In this document: piece after piece, positions 20,714 to 25,487 of the stretch | Layout of the letters: the number at the start of each line of letters is the position of its first letter | How positions within the stretch are numbered: position 1 is the first letter of the stretch | Origin: Algimonas arctica | GTDB taxonomy: Bacteria; Pseudomonadota; Alphaproteobacteria; Caulobacterales; Maricaulaceae | DNA: 64,000 nt | Assembly (NCBI RefSeq): GCF_014652695.1 | Contig: NZ_BMZH01000001.1 | Coordinates: forward strand, 248,001-312,000 | Direction: 5' to 3' | Made by a program: the position numbers and the translations under genes | The notes under the pieces: model-generated | Told to the model about the DNA's origin: nothing | What the model saw: the letters and a program-made list of their open reading frames with translations, nothing else | The model's database searches: none

Positions 20714-22486
20714 TTAGAGAGGGCGGCAAGCCTGCTTTAGCCAAGCGGCGATTTCGCCATCCAACTCAGGACCGATCTCTTTTTGAACGCGGGCGTGATA
20801 TTCATCGACATAGTCACGTTCAGCGCGGGTCAGCATGTCCGTGTCGATTAGCGCCCGGCAGAAAGGTGCCAGCGTGAGCGTATGGAAGCCGTGCATTGGA
20901 CGTTCGCCACCGGAGATATCTTCGGCTTGCGTGACATATTGCAAATTTTCGATCCGGATACCGTATTCACCCGCTTTATAATAACCGGGCTCGTTTGAAA
21001 CAATCATGCCCGTTTCTAGGGCGACGTTGTTGGGCGTCTTCGAAATCCGTTGTGGTCCTTCATGGACGCCAAGGAATGCACCAACACCGTGACCTGTGCC
21101 GTGATCATAGTCTAATCCGGCTTGCCAGAGGGGGTAGCGCGCGATGGCGTCGAGATTTGACCCCGTGGTGCCGGAGGGGAAACGGATCGTGGCTAGCGCG
21201 ATATGGCCTTGTAGCACGAGTGTGTAACGCTCACACATTTCCTGTGTCGCTTTGCCGATCGGAACCGTGCGCGTAACATCGGTCGTGCCGTCAACATATT
21301 GGCCGCCACTATCGACCAAATAAAGCGTTCCCGGCGCAAGGGGCAGGGTGGTCGCCGTATTGACGCGGTAATGACAATGCGCGCCATTGGACCCGGCCCC
21401 GGAGATGGTCTCAAATGAGAGGTCTTTCAGCAAGCCCGTATCATGGCGGAACGTTTCCAACTTCACGGCCGCATCAATCTCGTCAAACTGTCCCGATTGA
21501 GCCTCTGTGTCGAGCCAGTGGAGGAAGCGGATTAAAGGCACAGCATCCCGGCGATGCGCCGTTTCTGAGCCGCGCAATTCAGCGCTTGATTTAATGGCTT
21601 TGGGCAGCGCGACCGGGTCCTCTTGAGCGAGGACGGTTGCGCCAGCGTCTTTAAGGGATTGGGAATGCCAAGCTGAACTTGTGGTGGGATCGACAATAAG
21701 TGTTTTACCCGACCAGTTAGATAGGTCCGCGGCTAACGCGTCTTCCGAAGTAACGCTGACTTCATTGCCAAGATGCGAGCGAACATCACCAGACAGCTTA
21801 TCTGGGTCCACATAGAGCGACACGAGGCCGGCCTTGTCAATGATCGCATTGGCCAACATCAACGGTGTACAGCGCACATCAGACCCGCGCAGGTTAAGCA
21901 ACCACGCAATTGATGCGGGTGCCGTCAACATGGCCGCGTCTGCGCCCGCATGGGCGATGGCTTGGCCAATTTCTGCGCGCTTTTGCGCGTGATTTTTACC
22001 GGATAACATATCGGGTTGAATAGCGACTGGGCCCTTGGGGGCCGCAGGCCGGTTTGTCCAAGCAGTATCAATTGGGTTTACCTCTAGCGCGACTAATGTT
22101 GCACCAGCGCCCTCGGCAGCGTTGCGGAGCGCAGAGACGGCTTTGGGCGGATGCAGACGCGGATCATATCCGATCGTCTCGCCTTTGCGGAGATTGGCAC
22201 GAAGCCATGCGGTAATACCGTCTTCCAGTCGCGCAAACCCAAACAGATCGCCATCAACTTGCTGACGCACTTGCAACGTATAGCGGCCATCCGTGAACAT
22301 TGACGCACGGTCGTTAAGAACAATGGCGGCCCCTGCGGATCCGGTGAACCCTGTGGCCCACATCAGCCGCTCATTATAGTCGGGCAAATATTCGTTATTA
22401 TATTCGTCTTCATGCGGGATCAGCAGGCCGTCGAGCTTAAGGCGTTTCAGTTCGGCGCGTAAGAGCGGGACATTGTCCCGTCCCAT
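20714..22486 (-). CDS. Xaa-Pro aminopeptidase, M24 family
   Basis: 590 residues. It should remove an N-terminal residue that precedes proline. Two creatinase-type N-terminal domains (about residues 1-290) precede the pita-bread catalytic domain. Metal ligands are visible: the Asp pair in YLVDSGGQYVDGTTDVTRT, the His in HGTGHGVGAFLGVHEGP, and the Glu residues in VSNEPGYYK and GIRIENL. The start at 22486 is chosen because GGAGGG lies 6 nt upstream; the frame continues 22 codons further without a ribosome site. Length matches the long three-domain APP type. Confidence 0.9.
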   Translation of the reverse strand: MGRDNVPLLRAELKRLKLDGLLIPHEDEYNNEYLPDYNERLMWATGFTGSAGAAIVLNDRASMFTDGRYTLQVRQQVDGDLFGFARLEDGITAWLRANLRKGETIGYDPRLHPPKAVSALRNAAEGAGATLVALEVNPIDTAWTNRPAAPKGPVAIQPDMLSGKNHAQKRAEIGQAIAHAGADAAMLTAPASIAWLLNLRGSDVRCTPLMLANAIIDKAGLVSLYVDPDKLSGDVRSHLGNEVSVTSEDALAADLSNWSGKTLIVDPTTSSAWHSQSLKDAGATVLAQEDPVALPKAIKSSAELRGSETAHRRDAVPLIRFLHWLDTEAQSGQFDEIDAAVKLETFRHDTGLLKDLSFETISGAGSNGAHCHYRVNTATTLPLAPGTLYLVDSGGQYVDGTTDVTRTVPIGKATQEMCERYTLVLQGHIALATIRFPSGTTGSNLDAIARYPLWQAGLDYDHGTGHGVGAFLGVHEGPQRISKTPNNVALETGMIVSNEPGYYKAGEYGIRIENLQYVTQAEDISGGERPMHGFHTLTLAPFCRALIDTDMLTRAERDYVDEYHARVQKEIGPELDGEIAAWLKQACRPL

Positions 22487-22666
22487 CTTTGGCCCTCCGA
22501 CAACGTCAAAATTTTGTATCATGTCTATCGTGATTTTACCCATGCCCAACATCTAGGCGCTTTGGACCGGAAGGGAAAGCGGTCCACCTGAGTTTCGCTG
22601 GCATTCGATATTTTGGGCAAAAAATGATCTATTTATTTGATGTTTTCTCTAAACGGGACAACAACA

Positions 22667-22682
22667 TTAACGCGAGCCTAAC
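22667..22682 (+). promoter_or_regulatory. Possible CtrA binding site
   Basis: TTAA-CGCGAGC-CTAAC differs by one base from the Caulobacter CtrA consensus TTAA-N7-TTAAC. It lies about 145 nt before the first small Arg-tailed ORF and about 180 nt before the aminopeptidase. A single match of this kind can arise by chance. Confidence 0.35.
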
Positions 22683-22728
22683 AAGGATGTGAATTGCTAC
22701 CCGTTTTTGCATAGCTAAGTTGGTGCAC

Positions 22729-22803
22729 TGTAGGTTCAATTGGGTCAGGGGCAAACCTACATACAAGTCACTCAAAAAAGGGTGACGACAATCAGGTCGC
22801 ACC
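22729..22803 (+). ncRNA. Structured 5' leader with mutually exclusive hairpins
   Basis: Three stems can be drawn. P1 is TGTAGGTT (22729-22736) with AACCTACA (22754-22761), 8 bp perfect. Hairpin A is GTCACTC (22767-22773) with GGGTGAC (22780-22786) around AAAAAA. Hairpin B is GGTG-(A)-CGAC (22781-22789) with GTCGCACC (22796-22803), 8 bp with one bulged A. A and B share bases 22781-22786 and cannot form together, as in attenuators and riboswitches. The ORF start is 23 nt beyond. No known riboswitch class is recognised; transcription is inferred. Confidence 0.45.
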
Positions 22804-22825
22804 GCAAAGACAGAAGAAAAATAAC

Positions 22826-22957
22826 ATGTCCTATCAATTCAATGCCAGCACCTTGCGCCCGCAAAGCAAGGTCAAAGTCGGCGGCGAAATCGCTACGGTT
22901 AGTCTCCTGACCCGTCGCACTATCCGTCAGAACCGTCGGGCTCAACGCGCGCTCTAA
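22826..22957 (+). CDS. Small Arg-tailed protein 1 (43 aa), unknown family
   Basis: 43 residues starting MSYQFNASTLRPQ and ending LLTRRTIRQNRRAQRAL. The last 17 residues are strongly basic and align without gaps to the end of the second small ORF at 23147-23275, pattern LL[ST]RR[ST]xRxxRRxxR[AG][LV]. Such a tail suggests binding to RNA, DNA or an acidic partner. AGAAGAAAAAT precedes the ATG as a weak purine-rich ribosome site. A terminator follows 26 nt after the stop, and a structured leader precedes it. It does not resemble any family I know; being real depends on the paralogue and its flanking signals. Confidence 0.6.
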   Translation: MSYQFNASTLRPQSKVKVGGEIATVSLLTRRTIRQNRRAQRAL

Positions 22958-22983
22958 GGTTTATCCGTATTTCGCTTTTAATA

Positions 22984-23012
22984 GCTCGGACCCCGTGTCC
23001 GGGCTTTTTTTT
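22984..23012 (+). terminator. Rho-independent terminator after small ORF 1
   Basis: GCTCGGAC pairs with GTCCGGGC (one G-T pair) around CCCGT, followed by eight T. It lies 26 nt after the stop of the 43-aa ORF and marks that ORF as a separate transcript. Confidence 0.85.
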
Positions 23013-23042
23013 ATGTCGAAATCTCACAAGTGTTCATAAATG

Positions 23043-23064
23043 CATGATATATGTCATAATCATG
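23043..23064. promoter_or_regulatory. AT-rich inverted repeat upstream of small ORF 2
   Basis: CATGAT and ATCATG form 6-bp arms around ATATGTCATA, about 83 nt before the second small ORF. The place and symmetry suit an operator in a promoter region; the regulator is unknown. Confidence 0.35.
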
Positions 23065-23086
23065 TGAGTATGAATGAATCTATCTT

Positions 23087-23126
23087 TCTGACATAGAGAT
23101 TTCAGTCAGACAGCGGATAATTCCGC
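23087..23126 (+). ncRNA. Leader hairpins of small ORF 2
   Basis: TCTGAC (23087-23092) pairs with GTCAGA (23105-23110), and GCGGA (23113-23117) pairs with TCCGC (23122-23126) around TAAT. The stems sit 20 nt before the ORF and imitate the hairpin-rich leader of the first small gene, though the sequences are different. Confidence 0.35.
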
Positions 23127-23146
23127 GACTTAGAAAGAGAGATAAA

Positions 23147-23275
23147 ATGGCTTATCAACCGGATACAAAGCGGCTCATTGAGACTGCCGTGCCGATGAAA
23201 ACGGCTGAACCCCTTACGAAACTTTTGTCACGCAGGTCGCAACGGCGGTCCCGCCGCATCATTCGGGGTGTTTAG
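23147..23275 (+). CDS. Small Arg-tailed protein 2 (42 aa), paralogue of the first
   Basis: 42 residues starting MAYQPDTKRLIETAV and ending LLSRRSQRRSRRIIRGV. The start (M-[SA]-YQ) and the 17-residue Arg-rich end match the 43-aa ORF at 22826-22957, whereas the middles differ, which points to an old duplication. GAAAGAGAG about 6 nt before the ATG is a good ribosome site. It ends overlapping the prmA stop by 4 nt on the opposite strand. Function unknown; a nucleic-acid-binding or ribosome-associated role is inference from the charge only. Confidence 0.6.
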   Translation: MAYQPDTKRLIETAVPMKTAEPLTKLLSRRSQRRSRRIIRGV

Positions 23276-24123
23276 TCTCGCGATGCTAAGAGTGACGTCC
23301 AGCCATCCAGGCTGGGCTTCAGCGCCACGCTGAGGCCTTCGGCTCGAAAGGCGTCGGCAACCCATTCGGCTTGCGCATCTAAAATGCCTGATAAAATTGC
23401 AAACCCTTTTGGATTCATAGCCTGCGCAATATCACCCGCCAGCCCCCGCAAAGGGCCCGCCAAAATATTCGCGATAATGAGATCAAACGTCTTTCCCTTC
23501 AGGGCCGGCGTATCAAACCCGTCGGCTGTGACGGACCGAAACTGAACGCCGTTGATGGCGGCGTTCACGTCTGCGACTTCGGTTGCGACAGGATCAATAT
23601 CGGTCGCGAGAATATCCGCGTCGGGGAACAGCATTGCCGCTGCAATCGCAAGAATGCCGGCCCCTGTGCCAAGATCCAATATTGTCGCAGGGTGTAGGCC
23701 TCGTTTTTCTTGTTCATCTAACATCAACAAGCAGCCCGTCGTTGTGCCGTGATGGCCTGTGCCAAAGGCTTGGCCAGCATCGAGCAGAACAGGAAAAACC
23801 GCGTCATCTGGCGGTGTGTCGTGGCTGCCATGAACGAAAAACCGTCCGGCCTTTATGGGGGGAAGCCCTGATTGGCTCAATCCAACCCAGTCTTCATCCG
23901 GTAATTGCGCGACTGTGCTTTCAACGTGGGTGGGCATTTCGGATTGAGCCGCTTTTGCTGTGGCTTCGGCCTCATAAAGCGCTTGAACGCTGACCGCCGT
24001 TTCGCCCTCATCAAAGATCGATATGGCGAGGGCTTCTTTCATCTCATCGAAACCGAGTTGTTCGGCGAGATCATAGCCAATGTCACGCGGAGCGCGCACA
24101 GTTAGAGCAAAGGGCTGTGTCAT
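23272..24123 (-). CDS. prmA: Ribosomal protein L11 methyltransferase PrmA
   Basis: 283 residues. PrmA trimethylates ribosomal protein L11 using S-adenosylmethionine. The SAM-binding motif TILDLGTGAGILAIAAAML is near residue 145 and the catalytic-loop motif DLIIANILAGPL near residue 215. AFGTGHHGTTTGCL just before motif I is a PrmA signature. The ATG 24123 overlaps the stop of the upstream lipoprotein gene (ATGA) and has GGAG 9 nt before it; the frame runs nine codons further without need. Third gene of a coupled minus-strand set with uvrD. Confidence 0.93.
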   Translation of the reverse strand: MTQPFALTVRAPRDIGYDLAEQLGFDEMKEALAISIFDEGETAVSVQALYEAEATAKAAQSEMPTHVESTVAQLPDEDWVGLSQSGLPPIKAGRFFVHGSHDTPPDDAVFPVLLDAGQAFGTGHHGTTTGCLLMLDEQEKRGLHPATILDLGTGAGILAIAAAMLFPDADILATDIDPVATEVADVNAAINGVQFRSVTADGFDTPALKGKTFDLIIANILAGPLRGLAGDIAQAMNPKGFAILSGILDAQAEWVADAFRAEGLSVALKPSLDGWTSLLASRD

Positions 24124-25487
24124 GGTCTTGGGCTCCGGTTCACGTCGCACGTCTTAAGTCGCGCCTTAGACCCGTCCGCACCGCAAATAATGAAATCCAT
24201 AATCTCGGGTTGGCGGACATGGCCATTATGCGCGAAAGCCGGGTCGACGAAACTGTTAACAAACGGGATTATTGGTTCGGCAAATTCGACCCGCATGTCG
24301 ATGACATTAAAGCCGAGCCGGTCAACGAGCTTGCGCCGGTCCAGCGTTTCGAGACCTGAATCTGCCGCTTTAAAAGCTGGATCAATTTTACTGTTCTTAT
24401 AAAGCTGTTCGTAAAACGGAACGAGTTCATAGGTCAGAAAATCATTGATTTCGGAGAAGGCAATCAAGGTGGGTCTATCTTTTGGCGCATAATCTGACGG
24501 CTTGAATGCTACGCTATCTGACAAATCAGAGAGGCTAAGCAGCGGAATTTGATTGGCCAGCATGAAGACCTGCGTCTGGCGGATCATGGCATCATGCACA
24601 GTCTCGCGGCTATCCGTCATCGCGTCTCGAACCACGTCAAGCGCGATCTTGGACCCGAGCGATTCCGCGACGAAAGCAAACGGATCACCATTCATTTTCA
24701 TTTGCTCGGCTGCAGCACAAATTTCTTGATAATCAACTTCGTGGCCGATGGTTTCAAATGACAGCCCATTCGCTTCGAGAGCCGCCGCACACATGGCCCC
24801 GCGAATAGCATTGCGAATTTCCAGACCCGCAGGGCCGAGATACATGATCGCATCAGAGAAACCGTAATTGACGAATTTGTCTTTAAGGTTGCGGTTTAAG
24901 GGTCGCCGTAGTCCAGAGAAATCAAGCGAGTCGCCTTGGCTATCATCTTGTCCGACATGAGCATTTTGCAGGCTCTCCCACATCGTTTCATCCCAGAATA
25001 TCCGGTAAATAACATAGCTGAGGTCATCGCGAACAGGGAGGGTTTGACGGTCCATACAGACAAGGCGATCCAGTTGCAGTTGTCGGCCGGGGATCGCCGT
25101 CCGGTAGCGTTTGATCTCAGGAGATTTTATATAGACATGATTGCGAAGCGACAGATCGTTCTTTTTTCTATCCCGACCGCAGAGTGCGCTGACCACTTTT
25201 TTTTCGACATCTAAGCCGTAAGCGTCTGCGACCCCGGTGATGAACGCATTCGCGAGAGGTTTCTCATTCGGGTTTTCGACCCATCCAATACCGTGTAAAA
25301 AAATAATATTGACCCGGCGTTTATCTGTGTGGGGCGCCCTGTCAGCCATCGCCTCTAGCCCATCAAAGGCGGCGACGCCCGGGACCTCTGACGCGAGTGA
25401 ATTGACCTGCAAAAGCGAAAAGTTGACGCTGGCGCAGCCGGATAACATCCATGCAAGAGCCAGAGTGAACAGCGGTTTCGTGCTCAC
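24120..25487 (-). CDS. Lipoprotein with alpha/beta-hydrolase-like features
   Basis: 455 residues, GTG start overlapping the uvrD stop (GTGA). A lipobox is clear: LALAWMLSGCAS, so Cys18 should be lipidated. VNIIFLHGIGW near residue 62 looks like the oxyanion strand of alpha/beta hydrolases, and FVAESLGSKIALDVV near residue 276 has the nucleophile-elbow shape but with A-x-S-x-G instead of G-x-S-x-G. A catalytic Asp and His cannot be assigned securely. A lipase- or esterase-like protein at the membrane is the best inference; I know no named family. Confidence 0.6.
   Translation of the reverse strand: MSTKPLFTLALAWMLSGCASVNFSLLQVNSLASEVPGVAAFDGLEAMADRAPHTDKRRVNIIFLHGIGWVENPNEKPLANAFITGVADAYGLDVEKKVVSALCGRDRKKNDLSLRNHVYIKSPEIKRYRTAIPGRQLQLDRLVCMDRQTLPVRDDLSYVIYRIFWDETMWESLQNAHVGQDDSQGDSLDFSGLRRPLNRNLKDKFVNYGFSDAIMYLGPAGLEIRNAIRGAMCAAALEANGLSFETIGHEVDYQEICAAAEQMKMNGDPFAFVAESLGSKIALDVVRDAMTDSRETVHDAMIRQTQVFMLANQIPLLSLSDLSDSVAFKPSDYAPKDRPTLIAFSEINDFLTYELVPFYEQLYKNSKIDPAFKAADSGLETLDRRKLVDRLGFNVIDMRVEFAEPIIPFVNSFVDPAFAHNGHVRQPEIMDFIICGADGSKARLKTCDVNRSPRP

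Follow-up and report, generated by a model that had tools for sequence, protein, structure and literature searches.

Tandem genes for a small arginine-tailed protein in Algimonas arctica and their probable place in an LsrB/VtlR-type sRNA regulon

Two short open reading frames lie in tandem between a pepP-like and a prmA-like gene, as we take these neighbours to be, in the window, that is the whole stretch of 64,000 nucleotides of Algimonas arctica that was analysed. The window's genome is G000 in our locus labels. The following features were located:

20714..22552, minus strand: pepP-like Xaa-Pro aminopeptidase gene, the left neighbour, also in relatives
22697..22714, no strand given: copy 1 operator, CTACCCGTTTTTGCATAG, whose right half matches fully and whose degenerate left half has 4 mismatches to CTATGCATnnATGCATAG; 3 of 200 upstream shuffles as good
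22734..22737, plus strand: GTTC element in the -35 region, 19 nt behind the copy 1 operator
22758..22763, plus strand: -10-like TACATA, 43 nt behind the copy 1 operator, offset conserved
22826..22957 including the stop codon, plus strand: copy 1, a small protein of 43 aa, MSYQFNASTLRPQSKVKVGGEIATVSLLTRRTIRQNRRAQRAL (reading frame list, alignment, dN/dS)
22904..22954, plus strand: Arg-rich C-terminal tail of copy 1, LLTRRTIRQNRRAQRAL (alignment, AlphaFold2 model, helix-face angles)
22983..23012, plus strand: intrinsic terminator of copy 1 (fold; similar element in loci L010 and L011)
23030..23047, no strand given: degenerate operator of copy 2, GTGTTCATAAATGCATGA, 5 mismatches; 8 of 200 shuffles as good
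23090..23095, plus strand: -10-like GACATA of copy 2, a weak match, 42 nt behind the operator (sequence, offset)
23147..23275 including the stop codon, plus strand: copy 2, a tandem paralogue of 42 aa, MAYQPDTKRLIETAVPMKTAEPLTKLLSRRSQRRSRRIIRGV (reading frame list)
23222..23272, plus strand: Arg-rich tail of copy 2, LLSRRSQRRSRRIIRGV (alignment)
23272..24150, minus strand: prmA-like ribosomal L11 methyltransferase gene, the right neighbour

Both ORFs are present where the earlier note had placed them, each starting with ATG and ending in an Arg-rich tail of 17 residues. Six tail arginines are invariant in the alignment (R30, R31, R34, R37, R38 and R41 in copy 1 numbering), all of them common to both window copies. 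AlphaFold2 models of ten sequences predicted a helix at residues 27–42, with a mean pLDDT of 90 at residues 31–40 and 62–73 elsewhere. On a helical wheel the six arginines occupy an arc of 120 degrees, from 280 to 40 degrees. Since the hydrophobic moment of the tail is unexceptional (4–29% of shuffles were equally high), we read the helix as one-faced from the placement of the invariant arginines only. The terminator proposed for the first ORF was recovered as a hairpin at 22983–23005 followed by a T-run, with a fold z of -4.3. Hairpins had also been proposed for both leaders, and thermodynamic folding gave a z of about -3.2 for each, but the consensus fold of five copy 1 leaders from the same genus, which aligned poorly, contained no conserved pair. 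The start pattern ATG-NNN-TAY-CAR was uninformative, with 51 matches in the window's genome.

Neither ORF matched Pfam or NCBIfam at E-values up to 10. When 20 family members were compared with Pfam, no match at a meaningful E-value was obtained, RNA-binding families included, and none of the 20 matched DUF1127 (PF06568) at E up to 1. A PDB profile search with the family matched no solved structure, blastn of 22660–23280 against plasmids and distant genomes gave no match, and open-licence papers on the host taxa together with small proteins, sRNA or LysR yielded nothing on the family. The window pair looks like part of a so far unnamed protein family.

The family recurs between pepP and prmA in many genomes of family f1, which we read as Maricaulaceae-like, and in more diverged form in family f2, which we read as Hyphomonadaceae-like (both labels are our own reading). 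Single-sequence searches of 60 relatives returned few clear matches and several weak ones that lie exactly between pepP and prmA and share the tail pattern. When 299 genomes of the order were searched with a profile, 74 had a match at E up to 0.05, and many of these matches were weak and in other frames. We read 26 profile-hit loci from 26 genomes: pepP and/or prmA flank 25 of them as in the window, L092 being without this context, and a tail-bearing ORF was found by pattern in 24 and by translation in L088. The gapless tail described earlier is thus real and beyond chance. Pooling all fetched loci gave 43 ORFs at 40 distinct loci, with a single copy in 37; the window's genome and L279 have two copies, and L084 has two plus a third, earlier ORF read by eye. 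This further upstream copy in G103 (L084:1180-1335, plus strand, MAFFGKPEPKENEKVKSEATPKRRRKAPKSEEIGFIVRREHRRQHREDRAL) had been missed by the profile. Among 80 named loci (of 588 confirmed ones) the pepP/prmA gap holds the tail pattern in 10, including Robiginitomaculum sp. (L157) and Hellea balneolensis (L160) and, more diverged, Hyphomonas (L173, L177, L182, L186) and Henriciella (L178). Two further tail-pattern matches among these 80, in L200 and L225, were judged spurious.

At the level of the class, a search of 289 genomes at E up to 0.001 returned the window's two ORFs and one weak match with an internal stop. It also missed G036 (f2), whose ORF had been seen, so this search may overlook remote members. 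In the f2 genus g25 (L110, L111) pepP and prmA are spaced by about 70 bp with no gene between them, and four loci of families f3 and f5 (L117, L119, L126, L127) have gaps of 67–85 bp; these short gaps indicate that the small gene either was inserted in a particular clade or has been lost more than once.

In all 15 homologue pairs computed, pN was smaller than pS. Eight pairs pooled, in a set that uses one sequence twice, gave a pS of 0.48, a pN of 0.083 and a dN/dS of about 0.11. The window copies themselves are near synonymous saturation (pS 0.91). GGAG-like ribosome-binding sites precede the start codons of many relatives. Judged from sequence, both ORFs are real genes of one small-protein family with six invariant arginines near the C-terminus, as the proposal of paralogous genes had held. 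That proposal had been tied to homologous ORFs in related genomes and to substitutions that respect the reading frame and keep the motif; such ORFs were found at pepP/prmA, and the pooled dN/dS was 0.096 in the tail and 0.117 in the front part.

A TGCAT element that recurs upstream of the small gene resolves to an operator of 18 bp, CTATGCAT-NN-ATGCATAG. Its centre is located 83–126 nt before the start codon in 40 of the 43 ORFs (for L079 and L115 a later start codon was chosen by the script, which lengthens the distance). The best site within 220 nt upstream has 0–2 mismatches in 22 ORFs, 3–5 in 18 and 6–7 in 3; the sets of ORFs and sites were found via the protein profile or the operator pattern and are not unbiased samples. 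The right half of the copy 1 operator is also present in relatives. Of 40 small-gene promoters, 24 carry GTTC behind the operator, at an offset of 19 or 20. A TATATA-like -10 element (5 of 6 letters) stands at offset 42–44 in 26 of these 40 and in 33 of 46 promoters of the sRNA candidates described below, compared with at most 3 and 4, respectively, in any other window of three offsets; each promoter was counted once, with no tie-break on offset. If transcription starts about 7 nt after the -10 element, the operator centre would lie near -64. Both the gene and the shared operator are well supported by these sequence comparisons.

Not every member has a good site. Both operators of the window are weak, with 4 and 5 mismatches. 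That of L010, with 6 mismatches, does not exceed chance, as 47 of 200 shuffles match equally well; L090, L094 and L011 also have poor sites (19, 16 and 10 of 200), and the downstream copies L279_1850 and L084_1841 have no recognisable operator site. In the window, copy 2 has kept the spacing between operator and GACATA, and from this the duplication probably took the promoter along.

Other small ORFs were met beside pepP. L010 (1150-1350, plus strand) and L018 (1147-1323, plus strand) each have, between pepP and the operator, another small ORF that shares the pattern PA-x-D-x-x-DFEYP, and L023 perhaps has the same ORF on the minus strand at about 1765-1950, with looser likeness; none of this type was seen in the window at 22552–22700. 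In L103 and L106 (genera g9 and g8) a different small basic ORF ends in (S/T)TDV(D/N)A(Y/F)L...(K/R)R and lacks a good operator, the best site having 7 and 5 mismatches.

Searching the window's genome with TTTTTGCATAGC alone gave one exact copy and no excess with one mismatch; it took the full palindrome, applied to relatives, to reveal the second target. A search of eight genomes that allowed up to 3 mismatches found the operator again after a lysR gene, besides six 3-mismatch sites elsewhere (L146-L151). Among the matches listed, a site with at most 2 mismatches occurs in 67 of 119 family genomes versus 10 of 119 for the reversed pattern, and the 75 distinct sites fetched from them divide into 22 at pepP/prmA, 33 next to lysR and 20 elsewhere. 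Those with 0–1 mismatch, again among the matches listed, number 28, of which 10 are at pepP/prmA, 17 at lysR and 1 elsewhere (L296); among the listed 2-mismatch sites, 19 of 47 distinct ones are elsewhere. PhaR/AniA, considered as a possible binder of the operator, was set aside because sites with 0–1 mismatch lie at two places only, with one exception. Among the sites elsewhere, the surroundings of L250, L252, L256, L276 and L296 were read. In genus g8 (L250, L252, L253, each from 1620, plus strand) a CCATGCATTTTTGCATAG site precedes a conserved hydrophobic ORF of 33 aa, MDRLSATLAAVLQIGFTLAVFGGVIIAVAPTLA in L250 and L253, which could be a further small-protein target.

The operator beside lysR precedes a structured sRNA candidate with UCCUCCCC loops of anti-Shine-Dalgarno type. 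In the window's genome it was located as follows:

G000:C7, about 160642-160772, minus strand: sRNA-like element between the operator and a kinase gene (coordinates from L300)

This candidate comprises two hairpins, one with GUCCUCCCC and one with CUCUCCCC, then GAAGACUU and a terminator, and folds at -47.4 kcal/mol (z -5.1), with 0 of 200 shuffles as good. Its CTCCCC loops and terminator recur in relatives. Outside the genus, a CCTCC-rich element with a terminator follows lysR in 11 of 14 f1/f2 loci, with operators that are often degenerate (2–7 mismatches), and the kinase follows in none. At the other three f1/f2 loci (L306, L307, L313) and at 3 of 3 loci of family f4, lysR is without operator or sRNA-like element. 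That the second operator belongs to a promoter driving the hybrid histidine kinase gene was considered and dropped, as an sRNA-like element is found there where the kinase is unmatched and, where the kinase is present, lies between it and the operator.

An alignment of 27 sRNAs has invariant CGC, CCC and GACT columns (L306, L307, L313, L318 and L320, having no terminator, are omitted from the sRNA set). The terminator covaries: of 11 predicted pairs, 8 are changed on both sides, and every one of these 8 belongs to it. In the consensus fold of the 27, the terminator is recovered together with three middle-hairpin pairs, each of them intact in 25 sequences and broken in 2; the first hairpin, where the alignment is poor, is not recovered. 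Rfam gave weak likenesses for the lysR-adjacent element, to ar14, presumably NfeR1, in L310 (34.5 bits, cut-off 58.8) and to suhB/mmgR in L315 (26.5 bits, cut-off 41), yet these stay below the curated cut-offs and the window genome's own candidate has no relevant match. For ar15, which we take to correspond to AbcR, no Rfam match was found in 14 sources at E up to 1 or at the own locus at E up to 5.

The LysR protein itself has as its best PDB match 9HH1, the LsrB of A. tumefaciens, with 271 bits against 125 for the next chain. In the window's genome, trxB directly precedes its gene. The same order is found in 5 of 6 loci of the genus, the window genome's own locus counted, in only 1 of 17 loci of f1/f2 and f4 outside the genus, and in 31 of 34 lysR-bearing operator loci, and so is not general in the two families. 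The protein has a single cysteine, C144, from the conserved pair C144/C273; C273, which Agrobacterium LsrB needs, is missing.

LsrB/VtlR has been reported in Rhizobiales to recognise the box GCAT-N3-TG-N3-T and to activate the neighbouring sRNA AbcR1 as well as genes for very small proteins; in A. tumefaciens, VtlR directly activates abcR1, atu1667 and vrsA (PMC7486931, PMC8844928). We compared this box with our sites at 46 sRNAs; the set has 50 members, and the four whose operators exceed 5 mismatches were omitted. GCAT is present in 46 of 46, which the search had partly selected for, and the last T of the box in 45 of 46, which it had not (T frequency there 0.34); the full published box including TG occurs at 5. 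At the small-gene sites the last T is found in 19 of 40. In L105 the palindrome and an exact box overlap in one site, TTATGCATGGCTGGATTC. Among 29 loci of other orders, an exact box follows lysR within 300 nt in 5, compared with a shuffle mean of 0.42 and as many in 0 of 500 shuffles. From these comparisons LysR is likely the regulator of the operator, and its position and similarity suggest that it binds there and activates.

The arrangement resembles the LsrB/VtlR regulon of Rhizobiales (AbcR1, VrsA, Atu1667, BAB1_0914, BAB2_0512) in a LysR nearest to LsrB and encoded behind trxB in the window's genome, an sRNA that adjoins lysR, and a very small protein whose unlinked gene has a box of similar type. 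It differs in the sRNA, which here has CUCCCC loops and matches neither AbcR nor ar15 in Rfam, in the box, which is an extended palindrome, in the regulator, which keeps one conserved sensing cysteine, and in the small protein, which is not DUF1127. Combining PMC12501420 with published VtlR target data identifies the B. abortus small proteins as DUF1127. Across 16 f1 and f2 genomes DUF1127 was found in 0 at E up to 0.01, and the sole match in 18 genomes, in the f3 genome G049, lies inside an open frame of 873 codons.

CcsR-type sRNAs carry the CCUCCUCCC motif. A small basic protein tied to sRNAs of this kind is likewise found in the CcaF1-CcsR1-4 system (CIN1 locus) of Rhodobacter sphaeroides, where CcaF1 is described as a small RNA-binding protein co-transcribed with the CcsR sRNAs. 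There, however, a DUF1127 protein and the sRNAs share one transcript under RpoHI/RpoHII, whereas here the operator is common to two loci and the small protein falls outside DUF1127.

Taken together, the window probably holds tandem copies of a small-protein gene that is specific to the lineage and part of an LsrB/VtlR-type sRNA regulon; the protein would probably be an RNA-binding partner. A lineage-specific replacement of the small protein in such a regulon is our best reading. The LysR encoded behind trxB would bind CTATGCAT-NN-ATGCATAG some 64 bp ahead of each transcription start and activate two genes, the lysR-adjacent one for the structured sRNA with UCCUCCCC loops and the one for the small protein at pepP/prmA. 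The sRNA loops would pair with the ribosome-binding sites of target mRNAs. The Arg helix would bind RNA, be it the sRNA, its targets or the RNase/ribosome machinery, and the small protein would modulate the same response as the sRNA. The earlier note had suggested RNA, DNA, the ribosome or an acidic protein as possible partners of the basic tail; RNA binding by the tail is our leading hypothesis because of the analogy with CcaF1. An RNA-binding arginine-rich motif is an Arg-rich alpha helix that binds RNA; for the tail a helix at 27–42 is predicted, with the invariant arginines on an arc of 120 degrees, and its RNA binding is putative.

The main rival, which we consider unlikely, is that the gene belongs to the same regulon but the tail binds a protein instead of RNA, for example the PAS hybrid histidine kinase behind the sRNA or another kinase. 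Small Arg-rich DUF1127 proteins of A. tumefaciens bind the sensor kinase PhoR and act through it (PMC12501420), and a PAS-HisKA-HATPase-REC hybrid kinase does follow the lysR/sRNA locus in the window's genome. Yet the sRNA has its own terminator before that kinase, no such kinase was found behind lysR in the 17 loci outside the genus, and G036, G052 and G293 (f2) have the small gene and no kinase behind lysR, though it could lie elsewhere in the genome.

Improbable in our view is a second alternative, an ordinary gene with a shared operator that is used by some transcription factor other than the neighbouring LysR. The operator palindrome is even, whereas LysR boxes are usually of the T-N11-A type with odd spacing, also published as TTA-N7/8-TAA; LysR is proposed as regulator from position and similarity, and lysR stands without operator in 3 of 14 f1/f2 and 3 of 3 f4 loci. 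Against this, the operator lies directly behind lysR, its calculated position near -64 fits LysR activators, for which such a site is typical, the sRNA sites retain GCAT and the final T of the LsrB/VtlR box, and the L105 site joins palindrome and exact box. That chance produced two short ORFs in a conserved intergenic region, with low-complexity arginine matches of the sort common in these genomes at E 0.01–1, is hardly credible given the synteny, the ribosome-binding sites, the shared operator and the purifying selection, and is contradicted by the pN/pS of the homologue pairs.

Returning to the regulon with an RNA-binding small protein, the claim of an undescribed system holds in part: the pair has no Pfam or NCBIfam match and the protein family appears so far unnamed, but the circuit appears to be of a known kind, with parallels in LsrB/VtlR and CcaF1. 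A more specific version, which we regard as tentative and rather doubtful, is that an unrelated Arg-helix peptide took over the role of RNA-binding partner where DUF1127 was not found. It would be a convergent micro-chaperone dedicated to an anti-Shine-Dalgarno sRNA under an LsrB-type regulator, with repeated tandem duplication that in the window included the promoter.

The order of trxB followed by an LsrB-like LysR gene is widespread in the class (L323-L351, L300-L305; 24 of 29 loci of other orders). Such trxB-linked regulators suggest that LsrB-like proteins are not confined to Rhizobiales, unlike the statement in PMC11975290 that LsrB is unique to that order. The regulon proposed here would add a case with two targets whose sRNA reaches no Rfam cut-off. 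Whether small Arg-rich proteins tied to sRNAs bind RNA or protein is a question raised in PMC12501420. If our reading is true, an unrelated family would occupy the same regulatory slot, so that the slot and not the fold would have been kept by selection, and this family may serve as a second system for testing what such proteins bind.
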